Made by a program: the position numbers and the translations under genes. Below the pieces are notes generated by a model, which made no database searches, was not told the DNA's origin, and was given only the letters and a program-made list of their open reading frames with translations. Below are positions 16,754-35,333 of a DNA stretch of 39,473 nt, piece after piece. Location of the stretch: positions 1 through 39,473 of the forward strand of contig JAUNGV010000023.1 in the NCBI GenBank assembly GCA_030524225.1. The letters run 5' to 3'. Each line of letters opens with the position of its first letter. Positions within the stretch are counted from its first letter, which is position 1. The stretch is from Eubacteriales bacterium. Lineage in GTDB: Bacteria > Bacillota > Clostridia > Lachnospirales > Lachnospiraceae.

Positions 16754-17683
16754 TCACTGCAGTTCCGGCACTCTGGAGAGGTCGTAGGGCGTCGCCTGAT
16801 AGACGTAGTAGTTGATCCAGTTGCAGTACAGGTTATTGCTGTGGGAGCGCCACTGCAGGAGCGGGCGCTCATCCGGATCGTCCCCCGGGAAATAGTTGAC
16901 AGGCATCTTAATGTTCAATCCCTTTTCCAGATCTCTCTCATACTCGTCGCGCAGTGTGTAGCGGTCATACTCCGGATGCCCCATGATGAAAATCTGCTTG
17001 CCGTTTCTGGACATACACAGCAGAACCCCAGCCTCCTTCGACTCCGCCAGCACCCGCAGATCAGGGCAGGCGTGGATGCGTGCGGCGGGAACTTCCGTGT
17101 AGCGGCTGTGCGGAATCAGAAAATAATCATCGAACCCTCTCACCAGCGGCTCCTTCCGGTGCAGTACCTTATGGGAAAAGACGCCGAACAGCTTCTCCGG
17201 CAGCAGCTGTTTGTTCAGTCCGTAATGGTAATAAAGACCTGCCTGCGCACCCCAGCAGATGTGATACGTGCTCGTGACGTTTCTCTTACTCCACTCCATC
17301 GCGCGGCACAGCTCCGGCCAGTAATCCACATCCTCATACGCCAGCTTTTCCACCGGCGCTCCCGTGATAATCATCCCGTCAAACGTCCTGTCTTTCAGTT
17401 CATCAAACGTATAGTAGAACTTGTGGAGATGTCCGGAAGAGGCTCTGTTTTTGGCTTTATGCGAACTCATGCGCATAAAGGTAACGTCCACCTGCAGCGG
17501 CGTATTGGAAAGCATCCGCAGCAGCTGCAGCTCCGTATCCTCCTTCTGCGGCATGAGATTGAGAATACACAGCTGCAGCGGACGAATATCCTGATGCATC
17601 GCCGTATTCTCATCCATCACAAAGAGATTTTCCCGCTCAAGGATCTCCTTGACCGGAAGGTCATTCTGTATTTTTATGGGCAT
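16754..17683 (-). CDS. metA: Homoserine O-acetyltransferase, MetA type
   Basis: The 309-residue product acylates homoserine in methionine synthesis. The catalytic cysteine is C143 ([10 protein letters not shown]), with H236 and E238 in MGHPEYD. The acyl-donor position after TGAPV is a glutamate (E112). In this family glutamate there marks acetyl-CoA users and glycine marks succinyl-CoA users, so acetyltransferase is inferred. GGAGG lies five bases ahead of the ATG at 17683. The frame stays open upstream through the structured leader to a TTG at 17818 that also has a GGAGG, giving a possible 45-residue extension that is not part of the family. It follows ligA in the same run. Confidence 0.93.
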
Positions 17684-17820
17684 ATTTACCTCCATACCGG
17701 AGCGTTCTTCGCGACGGGGCGACGCAAATCTCCAATTTGCGTCTGCCATAATCGAGATTTGTGACACTCCGGCACAAATCTCGGGATTGAAAAATAAGCT
17801 ATCGAGCTTATTTTTCAATC
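17684..17820 (-). promoter_or_regulatory. R1 structured leader element A, upstream of metA
   Basis: In transcript order there are four hairpins. First is a perfect 16-bp stem (17820-17805 with 17800-17785, loop of 4). P1 is a perfect 11-bp stem (17783-17773 with 17763-17753) with the 9-nt loop CCGGAGTGT. P2 is a perfect 9-bp stem (17743-17735 with 17729-17721) with the loop TGGAG. P3 is a small GCG/CGC hairpin (17712-17702). Then come CTCCGG and the SD GGAGG (17693-17689). The P1 loop can pair with AACGCTCCGG (17706-17697), a possible pseudoknot. The CTCC could instead pair with the SD. Similar elements precede GH95, hemZ and an MBL gene. Confidence 0.65.
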
Positions 17821-17844
17821 TTTTACCTCCATTCCGCAGCTTGC

Positions 17845-19902
17845 TTATTCTTTCTCCCGCACCATCTCCAGGAAATCCTCCTCCGAGATCACCGGCACGC
17901 CGAGCTCCTGCGCCTTCTTGTTCTTTCCCGTCGTCGAGTGCACATCGTTGTTGATCAGATAGCTCGTCTTTGACGTCACGCTTCCCGTCGCCTTGCCGCC
18001 CAGACTCTCAATGCGCGCTTTCAGTTCGTTTCTGTTTGCAAAGTGATTCACCGCTCCCGTGATGACGAACACCTTGCCCGCCAGCGGCAGCTCCGCCTCT
18101 TCCGGATATTCGTTTTTCCTGATAACAAGCTCCCCGCACAGCTCTTCCAGACGTTTCCGGTTCGTCTCCTGTGCGAAGTAATCGGCAAATGCTCCCGCCA
18201 GCACAGGCCCGATTCCCTCGATCTGCGCCAGTTCCTCCTGCGTTGCCGCAAGCATCGCTGCCAGATCATCCGCAAAGTGACGGCAGAGAAGCTTTGCGTT
18301 CGCCGCCCCGATTCCCGGAATTCCGAGCGCATAAATCAGACGCGGCAGCTCCGTATGGCGGGAAGCCTCCACCCCAGCCTGCAGATTGGCGAAGGATTTC
18401 TCCCCGAAGCCGTCCATCTGTTCGATCTGTTCCCGGTAGCGGTCGAGATGATAGATATCGTCATAGTTGTGTATGAAACCTCCCGCGATCAGCTTCTCCA
18501 GCGTCATCTCCGAAAGGCCGTCAATATTCATCGCGTTGCGGCTGGTAAAGAGGGTAAAGGCCTTGATTTTCTTGGCCGTACATTCCGGATTCGGACAGAC
18601 GAGCACCTGCGCGTCGTTGTCCTGGCGCACCTGCGTCGCCTCCCCGCAGACGGGACAGTGCGCCGGGATCTCCAGCGTATCCGATCTCGTCAGATTCTCC
18701 GCAATCTGAGGGATAATCATGTTCGCCTTGTAAACCGAAATGCGGTCGCCGATCCCCAGCTGCAGGCTGCGCACAATGCTCACATTGTGGACGGAAGCCC
18801 GCTGTACCGTCGTCCCCTCCAGCTCCACCGGGGCGAACACCGCCACCGGATTAATCAGTCCCGTCCGGCTCGCGCTCCACTCCACAGCAAGGAGCGTCGT
18901 CTCCTGCACCTCGTCCGCCCATTTAAAAGCGATGGAATCCCGCGGGAACTTGGCCGTTCTCCCCAGAGACTCCCCGTAGGCGATATCATCGTACGTCAGC
19001 ACCAGACCGTCCGAAGGAAGATCAAACGTTTCCACCTCCCTCGAAAACCGCTCCACCTCGTTCAGAATCGTCTCCCCGCTCACCCGCACATACGGCACCG
19101 TCTCAAACCCCTGTTCCTGCAGGAAAAGGAGCTGTCTCTCACGGGAATTGTGAAAATCAGCCTCGCCCTGCGCCTCCACCAACGCAAAGGCATAGAGGTG
19201 TACCCGCCGCTTTGCCGTGACCTCACTGTTCAGCTGCCGCACCGAACCACTGCAGAGATTGCGGGGATTTTTGTAACGGCTCTCCGCCTCGCCTTCCTCC
19301 TCCGAAGTCCGGCTCAGAACCGCAAAATCAGAATATCTGATAATCGCCTCGCCCCGCAGAATCAGCTTGCCCCGAAAAGGAATAGCAAGCGGCAGGTTGC
19401 AAAAGACGCGGGCGTTCGGCGTGATCACCTCGCCGATCTCCCCGTTTCCCCTCGTCACCGCCTTGGAAAGGGCACCGTTTTCATACGTCAGAACCACAGT
19501 CAGACCGTCCAGCTTCCACGAGAGCAGGCCTTCCTGCTCTCCCAGCCACGCCCGCAGTTCCTCTCTCGATTTTGTCTTTCCGAGGGAGAGCATCGGCTTC
19601 TCGTGTCTCTCCTTGGGCAGAAAGTCAACCGCCTCATAGCCGACCCGCACCGTCGGGGAGCCTGCCAGCACCACACCCGTCTTCTTCTCCAGCGCGCTGA
19701 GCTCGTCGCAGAGCGCATCGTACTCCCGGTTGCTCATGATCTCGGCGTCTTCCGCGTAATAGGCCCGCGCCGCGCGCTCAAGCAAAGCGGTCAGTTCCTT
19801 CATCCGCGCCAGATCGACGCCCTCCCCGGCAGCCGAGGCGGGCGCGCTCTTTGCCTCCTGCGTCACTTCCTCCTCAGAGTCCCGCTGCATGATAGAGTGC
19901 AT
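17845..19902 (-). CDS. ligA: NAD-dependent DNA ligase
   Basis: The product has about 685 residues with the LigA order: Ia helices with [15 protein letters not shown] near 48, adenylation domain with the nucleotide-binding lysine K130 (SWKLDG), OB fold, four-cysteine zinc finger (CPVC...CPNPEC), helix-hairpin-helix repeats, and a C-terminal BRCT domain ([13 protein letters not shown] onward). It seals nicks in replication and repair. The adenylation region is divergent: [12 protein letters not shown] replaces the usual TRGDG..GEDVT. It may thus be a lineage-specific form or a second ligase. The ATG at 19902 has GGGAG upstream and overlaps the preceding gene by 29 bp. Confidence 0.9.
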
Positions 19903-21576: not shown

Positions 21577-24095
21577 TCTTCTTTCGTTTCTCCTTCAAAA
21601 TCCTTCTCCGTCAGCCGGAACACATCTCTTCCCTCCACCGTCCGGACGAGGCTTCTGCCCCGGTAAACGAATTCAATCCGCCTCGGCTGATCCGCTTTGG
21701 AATAGACTCTCGCGTCCAGCAGTCTGCCGTCTGCAAAGAACAGATCGATCTGGATCGCGCCCCACGCCCGCAGACCGCACGCCTGTCCGTTGCCCAGCTC
21801 CCGCGGCAGCGCCGGGAGCAGAATGACTCTGTTCTCCTCATTCTGCAGAAGCATCTCGCTGATTCCCGCCGCTGCGGCAAAATTGCCGTCGATCTGGAAC
21901 GGAGGATGCGCGTCGAAAAGATTCGGGTACGTCCCGGCTCCCTCGCCCTCCGCGGCGATCGTCCGCTGCTCCTGGGTCAGATGCAGCTGGCGCTTCAGGA
22001 GGGAAAGGGCTCTGTCCCCGTCTCCCAGACGCGCCCAGATATTGATCTTCCATCCGAGACTCCATCCCGTCCCCACATCGGTGCGCTCTTCCAGCGACCT
22101 GCGGCACGCCCTGATCCAGCGGTTCTCCCCGTCCTCCTGCATCCCGCTCCGGTCCACACGGAACTCCCGGCCCGGATAAAGCGGATACAGATGGGAAATG
22201 TGACGGTGATGAATCTCATCCTCCTCAAACTCCTCATCCCACTCCAGAAGCTGTCCCCGGCTGCCGATCCGGTACGGCGCAAGCCGCGCCAGCGCCTTCC
22301 GCGCCCTGTCCGCAAGAGGATCTCTGGCGTCGCACCGTTCCTGAATCTCATCCGTCATCGTTTTCTGGCGTTCCTTTGACAGATAGGCCGGGATCTCCTG
22401 CTGCCGGTCCGTCCGATCCAGAATTTCCACCGTTCTGACAAAGTTGCCGAGAACTTCCCGCACAATCGCAAGACTCATCGTCGTGTATTTCGTATTATGG
22501 CATTTCTCCCCGTTTTGCACAAACGTATTTTCGGGGGAACCGGAAACCGGAAGAACAAGATTTCCCTCCCCATCCTCCGTCAGAATATCGAGGAAGAACT
22601 GCGCCGCCTTTTTCAGCACGGGATAACAGCGGTTCTCCAGAAACTCCTGATCCAGCGTATACGCATAGTGTTCGCAGAGATGACGCGCCAGCCACCCGTA
22701 AGCCATATTCCAGAAACCGCAGGTATTCATATTGTGCTGCGGATGACGGATCCCGACCGGATGCGCCATACCCCAGATATCCGTATTGTGATGCACGACC
22801 GCGCCGTCCGCATGATAGAATTTCTGCGCTGTCTGTGCTCCGGTCTCAGAGAGAATATCGATGAAATCAAAGAGCGGCCCCGTCAGTTCCGAGAGATTCT
22901 CCGCCTCCGCGCCCCAGTAATTCATCTCCAGATTGATATTCGTCGTGTAATTGGAGGACCACGGCGGCTGAATTTTATCATTCCAGATTCCCTGCAGGTT
23001 CATCGGCCTCGTGCCCGCCCGGGACGCCGCAATCGTCAGATAACGGCCGTACTGGAAGAGAAGGGAATACAGATACGGGTCGTCTTGGGTCTCCTGAAAC
23101 AGACGCAGGCGCTCGTCCACCGGCAGCTCGTCCTCCTCCGGCCCGCCTGCAAAGCGCAGACTGACGCGGCTATAGAGACTGCGGTAATCCGCGATATGCC
23201 TTTTCTTCAATTCGTCATAGGAAAACGCGGCCGCGCGCCTGTCGTCATCCATCAGAAGGCTCCGACAGTCCGCACCGTCCAGATACGGATGTCTGTCATA
23301 TCCCCGGAAAGAGGTGCGCAGATAAATCCGCATTTCCACTCGATCCGCCTTCTGCACGCGAATGCAGGGAACTCTCTCCTCTGCCTCCGATTCCGTTGTC
23401 GCCGCACAGACGCTTCCTCCCTCCGCCTCCAGAGAAATGAGAACGCCGAAACGCATTCCTTTCCGCGCGTCCTCCTGCTCATAGCGAACCGGGTCCGGCG
23501 CTTCCAGATAACCCGGCAGATCCTCCGACGGCGCGATCCCGTCCAGCGTCAGCGTCGCCCTGCCGTCTCCCGCCTCACCCGCCGTATGGAAGCGGAGCGG
23601 CGAATCGATTCTGACATCAAAGGTTATATGACCCGGTTCCGTCGCCTCGAACTTCATCACCATAACCTGATCCGGTTCGGAAATAAAGGTTTCTCTCCAG
23701 AACAGCGCATCGCCCGAAACATAGGCCGTGTGATGGATCGCTCTCTCGAGATCCAGATTTCTCTCATATTCACTGTAGCTGCTCTCCGGGAAAGTAAAGT
23801 GCAGCGTTCCCGCCGGCAGATACGACTCTGAATACCGTCCCAGCAGGTGCTCTTCGATATACGCGTCGGCCTGCGCCCGCTCCCCTGCCATAACGAGTTC
23901 CCGCGCCCGCTGCATATGCGTCCACGCATCCGTCACACCGTCGTCCTTGCCCGGATATCCTGACCAGAGCGTGTCCTCATTGAGGCAGACCGTTTCCTTC
24001 TGCGGATCTCCGAAGAGCATCGCGCCGATTCTCCCGTTCCCAAGCGGCAGAGCCTGTGTCCAGCAGTCTGCCGGCTGTCTATACCATAATCTCAT
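21573..24095 (-). CDS. GH95 family alpha-L-fucosidase-type glycoside hydrolase
   Basis: The product has about 840 residues and no signal peptide, so it acts inside the cell. The N-terminal beta domain starts LWYRQPADCWTQALPLGNGR, followed by the (alpha/alpha)6 barrel. Family blocks include the paired asparagines in NYTTNINLEMNYW, the HHNTDIWGMAHPVG stretch and D in AHPPFQIDGNFAAAAG. Known members cleave alpha-1,2-linked L-fucose by inversion, and some act on L-galactose. The ATG at 24095 follows GGGAGAGG and is chosen over upstream ATGs because the extra frame is the R1 element. It is the first gene of a coupled run with mecA, the pseudouridine synthase and ligA. No fucose-metabolism genes are nearby. 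Confidence 0.87.
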   Translation of the reverse strand: MRLWYRQPADCWTQALPLGNGRIGAMLFGDPQKETVCLNEDTLWSGYPGKDDGVTDAWTHMQRARELVMAGERAQADAYIEEHLLGRYSESYLPAGTLHFTFPESSYSEYERNLDLERAIHHTAYVSGDALFWRETFISEPDQVMVMKFEATEPGHITFDVRIDSPLRFHTAGEAGDGRATLTLDGIAPSEDLPGYLEAPDPVRYEQEDARKGMRFGVLISLEAEGGSVCAATTESEAEERVPCIRVQKADRVEMRIYLRTSFRGYDRHPYLDGADCRSLLMDDDRRAAAFSYDELKKRHIADYRSLYSRVSLRFAGGPEEDELPVDERLRLFQETQDDPYLYSLLFQYGRYLTIAASRAGTRPMNLQGIWNDKIQPPWSSNYTTNINLEMNYWGAEAENLSELTGPLFDFIDILSETGAQTAQKFYHADGAVVHHNTDIWGMAHPVGIRHPQHNMNTCGFWNMAYGWLARHLCEHYAYTLDQEFLENRCYPVLKKAAQFFLDILTEDGEGNLVLPVSGSPENTFVQNGEKCHNTKYTTMSLAIVREVLGNFVRTVEILDRTDRQQEIPAYLSKERQKTMTDEIQERCDARDPLADRARKALARLAPYRIGSRGQLLEWDEEFEEDEIHHRHISHLYPLYPGREFRVDRSGMQEDGENRWIRACRRSLEERTDVGTGWSLGWKINIWARLGDGDRALSLLKRQLHLTQEQRTIAAEGEGAGTYPNLFDAHPPFQIDGNFAAAAGISEMLLQNEENRVILLPALPRELGNGQACGLRAWGAIQIDLFFADGRLLDARVYSKADQPRRIEFVYRGRSLVRTVEGRDVFRLTEKDFEGETKEE

Positions 24096-24275
24096 ACCCT
24101 CTCCCATCCGGAGCGCTCCACGCGACAGAGGCAGGGCAAATCTCAAGTCTGTGCCTGCCGTCCCGGAATTTGTGACGCTCCACCACAAATCCCGACATAG
24201 ACATATTAGTCCCTTCTCAATTTGCTATGCAAATTGAGAAGTAGCAGTCAAAGATTCACCCAAGGTGAATCTTTA
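24096..24275 (-). promoter_or_regulatory. R1 structured leader element B, upstream of GH95
   Basis: In transcript order: a perfect 11-bp hairpin (24274-24264 with 24260-24250, 3-nt loop) and a perfect 13-bp hairpin (24241-24229 with 24225-24213, 3-nt loop). P1 follows, an 11-bp stem (24194-24184 with 24174-24164) with the 9-nt loop GTGGAGCGT. Next are an imperfect P2 (about 24155-24130), a short GCG/CGC P3 (24123-24113), CGCTCCGG (24115-24108) and the SD. P1 stem and loop lengths equal those of element A, and the P1 loop GGAGCG can again pair with the downstream CGCTCC. The whole leader is thus a chain of hairpins. Confidence 0.65.
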
Positions 24276-32621: not shown

Positions 32622-32798
32622 GCAGCTTCGCTGCTTCGAATGAACTTTGTGCCTGAGAAAAGCAAATTCATTTCTCTCACACCGAAGCAACTTTGTTGCT
32701 TCGAACGAACTTTGTGCCGATGAAAGCAAATTCATTTCTCTCACACCGAAGCAGCTCCGCTGCTTCGAACGAACTTTGTGCCGCGCACAAAGTTCGTT
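32622..32798 (-). repeat. Tandem array of hairpin units in the topA leader
   Basis: GAACTTTGTGCC recurs at 32642, 32707 and 32771, giving units of 65 and 64 bp. Each full unit holds a perfect 8-bp hairpin: GAAGCAAC/GTTGCTTC (32684-32702) in one and GAAGCAGC/GCTGCTTC (32748-32766) in the other. A third, shorter copy lies at 32622-32634. The G-C to A-T exchange on both arms preserves pairing. At the 5' end of the transcript, a 13-bp stem (32768-32780 with 32786-32798, loop CCGCG) closes the array. Confidence 0.9.
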
Positions 32799-32802
32799 TT
32801 GC

Positions 32803-32831
32803 ACTATACCCTACTTTTCTCCGATTGGCAA
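32803..32831 (-). promoter_or_regulatory. Promoter of topA
   Basis: On the minus strand TTGCCA (32831-32826) and TATAGT (32808-32803) are separated by 17 bases, a good sigma-A match. Transcription would start around 32796, so the tandem hairpin array is the first thing transcribed. Confidence 0.75.
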
Positions 32832-34440: not shown

Positions 34441-34546
34441 ACTATTCTCCATTCCGAAGCGCTTTCGCGTGACGAGGCGACGCCACACTCTCCTGTTTGG
34501 TTTGCATCTGCCATCAGCAAACTTTATGCCGGAGCGCCCGCGCGAT
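34441..34546 (-). promoter_or_regulatory. R1 structured leader element C, upstream of hemZ
   Basis: This copy shares with element A the blocks ATGGCAGA-N-GCAAA and GCGTCGCC-N-CGTC. It also shares the small P3 (GCG-AAAG-CGC at 34468-34459) and the CTTCGG segment next to the SD GGAG (34450-34447). The long P1 hairpin is replaced by a GTTTGC/GCAAAC stem. CTTC can pair with the SD GGAG through one wobble. The distance from the element's ATGGAG to the chosen start equals that in elements A and B (12 nt). Confidence 0.55.
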
Positions 34547-34549
34547 GAA

Positions 34550-34596
34550 ACAGCATACAAAAGCAGGCGGCCATGCGCCTGCTTCTCTGCTGTATG
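34550..34596 (-). terminator. Terminator-like hairpin between the MBL gene and hemZ
   Basis: AAGCAGGCG (34561-34569) pairs perfectly with CGCCTGCTT (34576-34584) around a 6-nt loop, inside a longer ACAGCA/TGCTGT outer pairing. On the minus strand TTTTGT follows. It could stop part of the rel-MBL transcript before hemZ. Confidence 0.6.
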
Positions 34597-34635: not shown

Positions 34636-35283
34636 TTACACAAAGGCGTTGTACTTCTTCTCGTGACCGATCGTTGTGAAGCCGCCGTGTCCCGGACAGA
34701 CCGTCGTATCGTCCGGCAGTTCGAAAAGCCTGTCCCGGATCGAGCGGATCAGTGCGCTCGTGGAACCGGTCGGAAGATCCGTCCGCCCGATGGATTCCTC
34801 AAAGAGCGTATCGCCGCTCATCAGAATGTGCTGGATCTCCTCCCCGTCGGTGTGTTCGATATAATAACAGCAGCTGCCCACCGTGTGTCCCGGCGTCGCA
34901 ATCACATGAACCGTGATACCCGCCGCCGTGATTGCCTCTGCGTCTTTCAGATAGCGGTCCGGCACGACAGTATAGGGCTTGCCGCACTCCCGCGAACAGT
35001 TATTGTCCGCATCCTCGCAGAGCACCTGCTCCTCCTCATAGGCGTAGAGAGGTGCCTTGGCGAGCTCCCGCAGCTCATTCGCCCCCAAGATATGGTCGAA
35101 ATGCGCATGCGTCAGGAAAATTGCCCTGACCTGCAGCCCCTGCGCCGTCAGCTTCTCATAGAGCAGATCCCCGTTGTCCGCCGGATCGAAGACCACGACC
35201 TCATTGGAATCCTCCAGATGCAGATAATAGAAATTCGTCTGCACCATCCCGATTGTATAAACGCCAACCTGTATTTTACTCAT
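34636..35283 (-). CDS. MBL-fold hydrolase, glyoxalase-II-like
   Basis: The 215-residue product has the metal site THAHFDH (H-x-H-x-D-H), then ATPGHT, MSGDTLF and CPGHG, all intact. Proteins of this type lie between rel and hemZ in many Clostridia and are annotated as hydroxyacylglutathione hydrolase-like, but the organism need not make glutathione, so the substrate is open. The ATG at 35283 has GGAG six bases ahead. It follows rel by 60 bp, with R1 element D filling the gap. Confidence 0.88.
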   Translation of the reverse strand: MSKIQVGVYTIGMVQTNFYYLHLEDSNEVVVFDPADNGDLLYEKLTAQGLQVRAIFLTHAHFDHILGANELRELAKAPLYAYEEEQVLCEDADNNCSRECGKPYTVVPDRYLKDAEAITAAGITVHVIATPGHTVGSCCYYIEHTDGEEIQHILMSGDTLFEESIGRTDLPTGSTSALIRSIRDRLFELPDDTTVCPGHGGFTTIGHEKKYNAFV

Positions 35284-35333
35284 ACTCTTCTCCGTTCCGG
35301 AGCGCGCTGCGCGGCTCCCCTGTCCGTCTGCCG
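35284..35333 (-). promoter_or_regulatory. R1 structured leader element D, short form
   Basis: This short copy between rel and the MBL gene keeps GGCAGACGG (35332-35324), a P3 hairpin (GCGC-AGC-GCGC at 35312-35302), CGCTCCGG (35304-35297) and the SD GGAG (35293-35290). CTCCG and CGGAG can pair directly around a 3-nt loop, masking the SD. P1 and P2 are missing. Confidence 0.5.

Follow-up and report, generated by a model that had tools for sequence, protein, structure and literature searches.

The locus considered here lies on the minus strand of the window (the whole stretch of DNA analysed, 39,473 nucleotides), in which metA is preceded by ligA and, directly upstream of its start codon, by a compact stack of hairpins (Table 1). 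The original prediction had described three perfect stems of 16, 11 and 9 bp immediately before the Shine-Dalgarno sequence (SD) of metA, and inverted-repeat analysis of the window recovered all three, each with 100% complementarity. Read along the minus strand between 17830 and 17681, one meets a first SD (GGAGG, 17830-17826), the 16-bp hairpin, the 11-bp hairpin with its loop CCGGAGTGT, the 9-bp hairpin, the tail AACGCTCCGG, a second SD (GGAGG, 17693-17689) and the metA ATG at 17683. The 9-nt loop is complementary to the tail, as had been claimed; the spacing of five bases given for CTCCGG to GGAGG, however, holds for the end of CTCC, CTCCGG itself ending 3 bases before it. Judging from its sequence, the left-hand SD is probably the original metA SD, i.e., the left copy of a duplicated target. 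More widely, 17685-17709 and 17822-17846 form a direct repeat (84%), and a tail-like GCTGCGGAATGGAG is seen at 17840-17827.

The metA-leader strand folds at -63.4 kcal/mol versus -36.6 +/- 3.8 for 200 shuffled sequences (z -7.1). In its minimum-energy fold, the 11-bp stem gives way to a long helix joining the loop region and the tail; the folding of a single sequence is therefore no proof of a pseudoknot. At gathering score, Rfam gave no match in the window, in line with the earlier statement that this leader is not a SAM-I riboswitch; against 11 loci of the element, it returned 2 sub-threshold snoRNA matches, none convincing. A TTG-started frame of 354 codons (16754-17818, minus strand) crosses the element in phase with metA, a trap by which gene callers may extend proteins into the element. 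In addition, a short second hairpin (CCGCAG-N5-CTGCGG or similar) often stands directly 5' of the left SD, as in the left flanks of L003, L009 and L018 and of the loci that overlap them, and may represent a further SD-proximal repeat family.

Table 1. Features of the metA leader and related sequences in the window.
Feature	Position	Strand	Basis
Left-hand SD GGAGGTAAAA	17821..17830	-	Sequence; 9/10 letters as in 17684-17693
P1, 16-bp hairpin, CGAT loop; arms 17785-17800/17805-17820; first base of the element is the start of P1	17785..17820	-	Inverted repeat and covariation
P2, 11-bp hairpin, 9-nt loop CCGGAGTGT (17772-17764); arms 17753-17763/17773-17783	17753..17783	-	Inverted repeat; 6/11 pairs changed on both sides
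P3, 9-bp hairpin with GGC/GCC base; arms 17721-17729/17735-17743	17718..17747	-	Inverted repeat; 6/6 counted stem pairs changed on both sides
Tail AACGCTCCGG, pseudoknot partner of the P2 loop	17697..17706	-	Complementarity, covariation
Complete element, 127 nt	17694..17820	-	Boundaries from 19 aligned own-genome copies and model R1
Right-hand SD GGAGGTAAAT, closest to the metA ATG; right copy of duplicated target	17684..17693	-	Sequence and flank-duplication tests
metA, homoserine O-succinyltransferase family, 309 aa	16757..17683	-	Pfam HTS, E 1.1e-136
Second, diverged copy before GH95 glycosidase gene	24101..24229	-	R1 match 24105-24229, 54.5 bits, E 8e-14
Third, degraded copy (P3-like part and tail GCTTCGGAATGGAG) before radical-SAM gene, ATG 34440	34447..34591	-	R1 match 34451-34591, 24.3 bits, E 2e-5
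Tail-only relic GCTCCGGAACGGAG before metallo-beta-lactamase-fold gene (34636-35283)	35290..35303	-	Tail match

A repeat family at translation starts

A first DNA search of the source genome, in which 40 candidate places were scored, matched the unit at 83-100% identity, mostly over at least 120 bases, and 19 own-genome copies measure 127-129 nt. Nineteen of the 20 best own-genome copies (L017, whose left end was unmatched, was dropped from alignment A1) were used to build model R1, which yielded 140 matches at E<=0.01 in this genome with 150 of 1719 candidates scored; at least 11 of these matches read as opposite-strand echoes of other copies in the count. Moreover, the 14-nt tail GCTCCGGAATGGAG has 105 exact occurrences in the source genome versus 0 for the reversed control; 98 of these tails lay in the loci examined. 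By a simple expression, P1 is absent from 72 of 96 tail sites, the bodies of which are, among the sites listed, modular or decayed. Regarding the window itself, the ATG of the GH95 gene lies by inspection at 24095, the ORF list starting this frame at 24188.

Several variants accompany the family. An additional hairpin resembling ACGCAAAATCAAAGATTTTGCT stands between P2 and P3 in copies L088, L092, L094, L239 and L241, while L096, L102, L108 and L109 have, at the 3' end of the model, a stretch around GATGCTTCTTGAACG(C/T)AGTTCAAGAAGATG instead of P3 and the tail, the exact tail being found further downstream in L096, L102 and L108. Elsewhere in the window, at 32660-32820 of the minus strand, an imperfect tandem repeat (GCACAAAGTTCGTTCGAAGCA...) stands just 5' of a gene which we take, from its translation, to be topoisomerase-like, and is in frame with this gene in the ORF list.

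Nearly all examined copies are situated just before a start codon and in the orientation of the gene. Indeed, a frame of at least 60 codons (or one open to the end of the locus) follows 87 of the 98 distinct tail sites, and the start codon of this frame lies 4-8 nt after the GGAG of the tail at 80 of the 98, most commonly 6 nt (48 sites) and then 7 nt (19), versus 5.8% for 1,960 positions drawn at random from these loci. Among the 20 best copies inspected by eye, all except L014 have a start codon a short way downstream of the second SD, and a few further copies with no start codon nearby occur in the list of 70. Most full copies also have an SD-like left flank and so stand between two SDs. 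Among 20 downstream genes tested, metA included, 19 belong to Pfam families of many kinds and one to none, and no function is common to them.

A protein-coding leader was considered and rejected. Of the three sense frames, the one that begins at position 3 of the element ([ATG]TG AAA AAT) is uninterrupted in 32 of 53 own copies and 17 of 29 others, the two other frames being open in at most 4. However, one antisense frame is open as well (21 of 53 own copies), the ends of the position-3 frame are scattered, and among 46 own copies with an [ATG]TG start no more than 7, that of metA included, have this frame joined to the gene; there is therefore no conserved coding or coupling, nor a conserved open frame fused to the gene of the kind known from Rickettsia palindromic elements.

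Beyond the source genome, the family is found in a part of the relatives. Among 61 genomes drawn as relatives, 20 were positive with R1, namely the source genome, 18 of 36 same-genus species (1 to 34 matches) and G043, a genome of another family with 15 matches; under strict filters, the 18 remaining same-genus relatives had no match, so that the element is patchy even within the genus. A model search of Lachnospiraceae, which had been suggested as a check, was run with R2: of 250 genera of this family, 34 were positive, the own one included (12 of the 34 with at least 13 matches), and a class-wide draw gave 2 positive genomes out of 341, the source genome and one other member of its family. 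Whenever more than 40 genomes were scanned together, the filters were stricter and few candidates were scored per genome, so that these counts are lower bounds. Of 19 loci from as many other genera, 17 show a similar anatomy, the exceptions being L326 (tandem-type joint) and L329 (no long frame). A plasmid collection gave no match to the element, and IMG/VR no exact match to the P1 pattern of one subfamily. Two unannotated scaffolds of a phage collection labelled Bacteriophage sp., MT836788.1 (L335) and MT838414.1, match part of the element; the former, to judge from the enolase-like frame beside the element, is probably chromosomal.

No copy was seen upstream of metA in 29 same-genus loci or in 39 loci from named records, two sets that overlap in organisms; when 38 of the latter were scanned with R2, 2 matches came up, neither of them upstream of metA. 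In many of these element-free loci, the end of ligA runs, by eye, up to metA and an SD-like stretch stands shortly before the ATG. The proposal that the hairpins regulate metA is thus not upheld: they are a dispersed unit found before genes of unrelated function, and have not been seen at metA of relatives.

Conservation of the fold and of the pseudoknot

Covariation among homologues had been set beforehand as a test of the pseudoknotted fold at the SD, and it proved to be strong. In alignment A1, comprising 19 own copies, 97.0% of the cells pair and 8 pairs show double changes versus 2.0 after shuffling. In alignment A3, made of 40 chosen copies (11 own and 29 from relatives), 96.1% pair and 26 of 39 pairs have changes on both sides versus 15.2 shuffled, a count lowered in P1 by five rows of one subfamily that stand one column off; the covariation score is 0.394 versus 0.131 shuffled and at most 0.107 in slid controls. 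Alignment A2, which contained strand echoes, was excluded from counting. The outer pairs of P1, for example, change together between copies (GATTG/CAATC, GTGTG/CACAC, GAGTG/CACTC, GTATG/CATAC), and within the pseudoknot 4 of 8 pairs have changed on both sides, giving loop/tail forms such as CCGGAGCG/CGCTCCGG, GTCGAAGCGC/GCGCTTCGAC, GTGCCGGAGC/GCTCCGGCAT and TTTCTGAGCG/CGCTCAGAAA.

A loop:tail helix of at least 6 bp can be formed in 90 of 94 copies. For the 48 copies from foreign genomes, the helix reaches at least 6 bp in 96% and at least 8 bp in 85%, versus 63% and 42%, respectively, after loops and tails had been exchanged among the copies; these counts omit copies whose P2 loop fell outside the search expression and keep 16 of the 19 loci from other genera. 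It is thus shown that P1, P2, P3 and the pseudoknot between the P2 loop and the tail have been kept through compensatory changes. Regarding the nucleic acid on which this conservation acts, a palindrome functioning as DNA only was rejected on P2, in which G.U exceeds A.C (14 versus 4, in copies with a 9-nt loop); P1 does not show such an RNA bias (15 and 12), and the excess in the pseudoknot (51 versus 11) is a count biased by the choice of register.

It had also been proposed that CTCC chooses between the loop and the SD. This is possible in the source genome, in which 35 of 46 copies offer at least 4 Watson-Crick pairs between tail and SD, but it is not general, since only 13 of 48 copies from other genomes do so. 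Hence, Watson-Crick CTCC:SD pairing is mostly limited to the source genome whereas the pseudoknot is general; the enolase leader of L335, for instance, has the pseudoknot CCGCAGGCG/CGCCTGCGG and, by inspection, a tail devoid of CTCC. When G-U pairs are counted, 37 of the 48 foreign copies form 4 bp between tail and SD, and a weak CTCC switch using G-U pairs would be possible on the sequences. Although its position at the SD and these alternative pairings are what a translational switch dedicated to metA would call for, the scarcity of Watson-Crick tail:SD pairing abroad and the failure to see the element at metA of relatives speak against such a switch, and the dispersal of the repeat refutes a metA-specific device; we grant it next to no probability.

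Empty sites, flanks and the search for a mover

The element is dispersed, stands at start codons and is absent from orthologous loci that keep the SD and the start codon. At L274, the orthologues of G013, G024, G033 and G003 (89-92% identical over the query) are empty, these four relatives reading (T)CAGGAGG..ATG versus TCAGGAGGAA-element-GGAGGTAAAAGTGAAATG in G007. At L273, G024, G003 and G036 have GAAAGGGG..ATG versus an element between GAAAGGGGAAAACA and GAGAGGAAACATG in G007, and G014 and G033 are likewise devoid of the element, with another SD. One insertion is common to G036 and G025. The pair closest by identity, G003 and G013 (99%), did not provide a clean empty site, a P1-like hairpin being kept in G013, and the comparison within the L270 group could not be read as filled and empty.

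Additional evidence comes from the flanks. Over 91 copies, the match between left and right flanks has a mean score of 3.84 versus 2.55 shuffled (p<=5e-5), with a mode of 8 bp, and the excess is found in own copies (4.14 versus 3.03), in relatives (3.27 versus 2.19) and in other genera (4.05 versus 3.08). Fourteen of the 91 copies, the metA copy (L023) among them, score at least 7 versus 3.4 expected, and 6 of the 14 seem to be tandem or nested. Such copies were nevertheless rejected as an explanation of the signal, since it persists once all 19 copies of tandem or nested appearance are dropped: the 72 others score 3.83 versus 2.68 (p 5e-5; separately 0.0001 for own copies, 0.014 for relatives and 0.02 for other genera), and 8 of them, again with the metA copy, reach at least 7 versus 2.9 expected. 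These tests took in 42 of 70 own copies, those with both ends matching simple expressions, and left out the relatives L062, L064, L065 and L070 (odd or truncated ends), L282 and repeats of one place. In a fixed 8-bp register, pooled own copies were not significant (p 0.11), the GTG-type subfamily was (9 copies, p<2e-4) and the GATTG type was not (p 0.63); the free-register flank test gave p 0.034. The match is seen at 24 tail sites with P1 (p 0.02), and there is no signal of target duplication at 72 tail sites devoid of P1 (p 0.58) or when 96 tail sites are pooled (p 0.22 to 0.55). As most flank pairs are imperfect and SDs resemble one another anyway, the duplication rests on statistics.

Other junctions exist. 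In G008, G010, G027 and G094, several copies are joined at their end to a further GAGTG unit with no SD; L057, L058, L062, L076, L077 and L326 similarly show a copy followed by a GAGTG unit with no SD between them, L077 having GCTTTGAAA on both sides. Comparison by inspection of the left end, GATTGAAAAATA, with the reverse complement of the right end, ATTCCGGAGCG, revealed no terminal inverted repeats.

Altogether, we favour, with a probability of about three in four, the reading that the metA hairpins are one copy of a family of non-autonomous, SD-targeting mobile elements of Lachnospiraceae with a conserved pseudoknotted leader RNA. An enzyme would insert the unit at or just behind an SD, duplicating about 8 bp; the gene would keep an SD at the usual distance, so that the insertion would be tolerated. 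The pseudoknot would then tie up the tail beside the new SD, leaving this SD probably single-stranded and shielded from the upstream stems, and expression of the gene would come to depend on the fold of the element. Later on, the 5' part would decay while the tail with its SD would stay because the gene needs it, which would explain the tail-only relics.

The conservation of the whole internal fold is unexpected for a passive MITE and counts against this reading. It would be accounted for, together with the location at the SD in the orientation of the gene and the retention of the tail where the rest is missing, by a host regulatory RNA of a large regulon, whose fold, pseudoknot included and conserved across genera, would bind a common factor or sense a common condition to open the SD of many genes, and which would have spread by duplication and selection, not as a selfish element. 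Yet the 20 downstream genes have no function in common, the distribution within one genus is patchy, the presence of the element at metA and at the two loci with clean empty sites is specific to a lineage, and the match between left and right flanks points to insertion; we thus hold such a regulon to be unlikely. The two readings are compatible, as a mobile element may have been domesticated.

Regarding the mover, Y1_Tnp, RVT_1 and Transposase_mut were not seen in the source genome (81% complete), and none of them shows a positive association with the carriers across 250 genera: Y1_Tnp is rarer in carriers (12 of 34 versus 131 of 216 other genera, p 0.008), RVT_1 is not enriched (20 of 34 versus 122 of 216, p 0.85) and neither is Transposase_mut (7 of 34 versus 74 of 216). 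No autonomous partner with common ends was met in this search, which covered the three enzyme families. These counts bear on two other modes of transposition. An RNA-mediated, SINE-like mobility, in which the folded leader RNA is the substrate and new SDs are located by the 3' end that bears its own SD, would suit the near-constant orientation, the lack of terminal inverted repeats, the target duplication, the constant 3' end beside a variable 5' part, and a conserved fold with an intramolecular pseudoknot at its 3' end. It is, however, highly unlikely given the distribution of RVT_1, and no target duplication is seen around copies without the 5' part, contrary to what 5' truncation predicts. 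The broader idea of a bacterial counterpart of SINEs, in which a structured leader RNA with the SD as its landing address and the fold as its transposition substrate has become the translation start region of about 100 genes in one genome, appears quite unlikely. As for a hairpin-ended, non-autonomous relative of IS200/IS605 or REP sequences moved as single-stranded DNA by a Y1 transposase, the hairpins, the near-constant orientation to a short target and the missing terminal inverted repeats are as expected, but the IS200/IS605 family is not known to make a target duplication, whereas one is detected statistically here, and with Y1_Tnp rarer in carriers the chance of such an origin is very remote.

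Relation to known repeats and RNAs

If the mobile-element reading is true, the element aims at SDs and can thereby enter genes that are expressed and leave them active, and it has rewritten the translation start regions of many genes in one rumen-type member of Lachnospiraceae. The question is then raised of which enzyme recognises the SD, in DNA or in RNA. Filled and empty sites moreover offer natural material to measure the effect of a pseudoknotted leader on translation, and the family is a warning that a screen for conserved leader RNAs may return mobile elements. No description of the element was recognised in the open-licence PMC literature, PMC3049150, PMC8632094 and PMC10969869 among it, which is weak evidence of novelty and not proof of it.

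Among described repeats, BOX, RUP and SPRITE of pneumococcus are MITE-like, small interspersed sequences that are highly base-paired, occur in many dispersed copies with target duplication and nested insertions, and reside in transcribed leaders (PMC3049150). The element resembles them in all these respects. Unlike them, it has no terminal inverted repeats by inspection, an SD target taken in one orientation, a covarying pseudoknot and a usable SD at its 3' end. With MITEs in general, it has in common that it is short, non-coding and dispersed in many copies; a target-site duplication is seen statistically (mode 8 bp, mostly imperfect, and not at tail sites devoid of P1), and terminal inverted repeats common with an autonomous element are not found.

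REP/BIME sequences and palindromic repeats derived from IS200/IS605 consist of hairpins, have an orientation fixed to their target and lack terminal inverted repeats. The element resembles them in these three respects and differs by the missing association with Y1, by its target duplication and by its larger fold with a pseudoknot. Rickettsia palindromic elements, which are palindromic, dispersed and located inside proteins, find a parallel in those copies, 7 of 46 in the source genome, whose frame continues into the gene; the present element, by contrast, stands before the start codon and not inside proteins, and does not keep a reading frame. Finally, conserved secondary structure with compensatory changes is what is expected of a cis-regulatory RNA, and some translational riboswitches have an SD-proximal pseudoknot with a possible alternative pairing, as does the element; it departs from them in being a dispersed repeat with no gene class and no Rfam match. 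Small non-autonomous mobile elements are a known kind; what is unusual in this one is the combination of an SD as target, the absence of terminal inverted repeats and a covarying pseudoknot.
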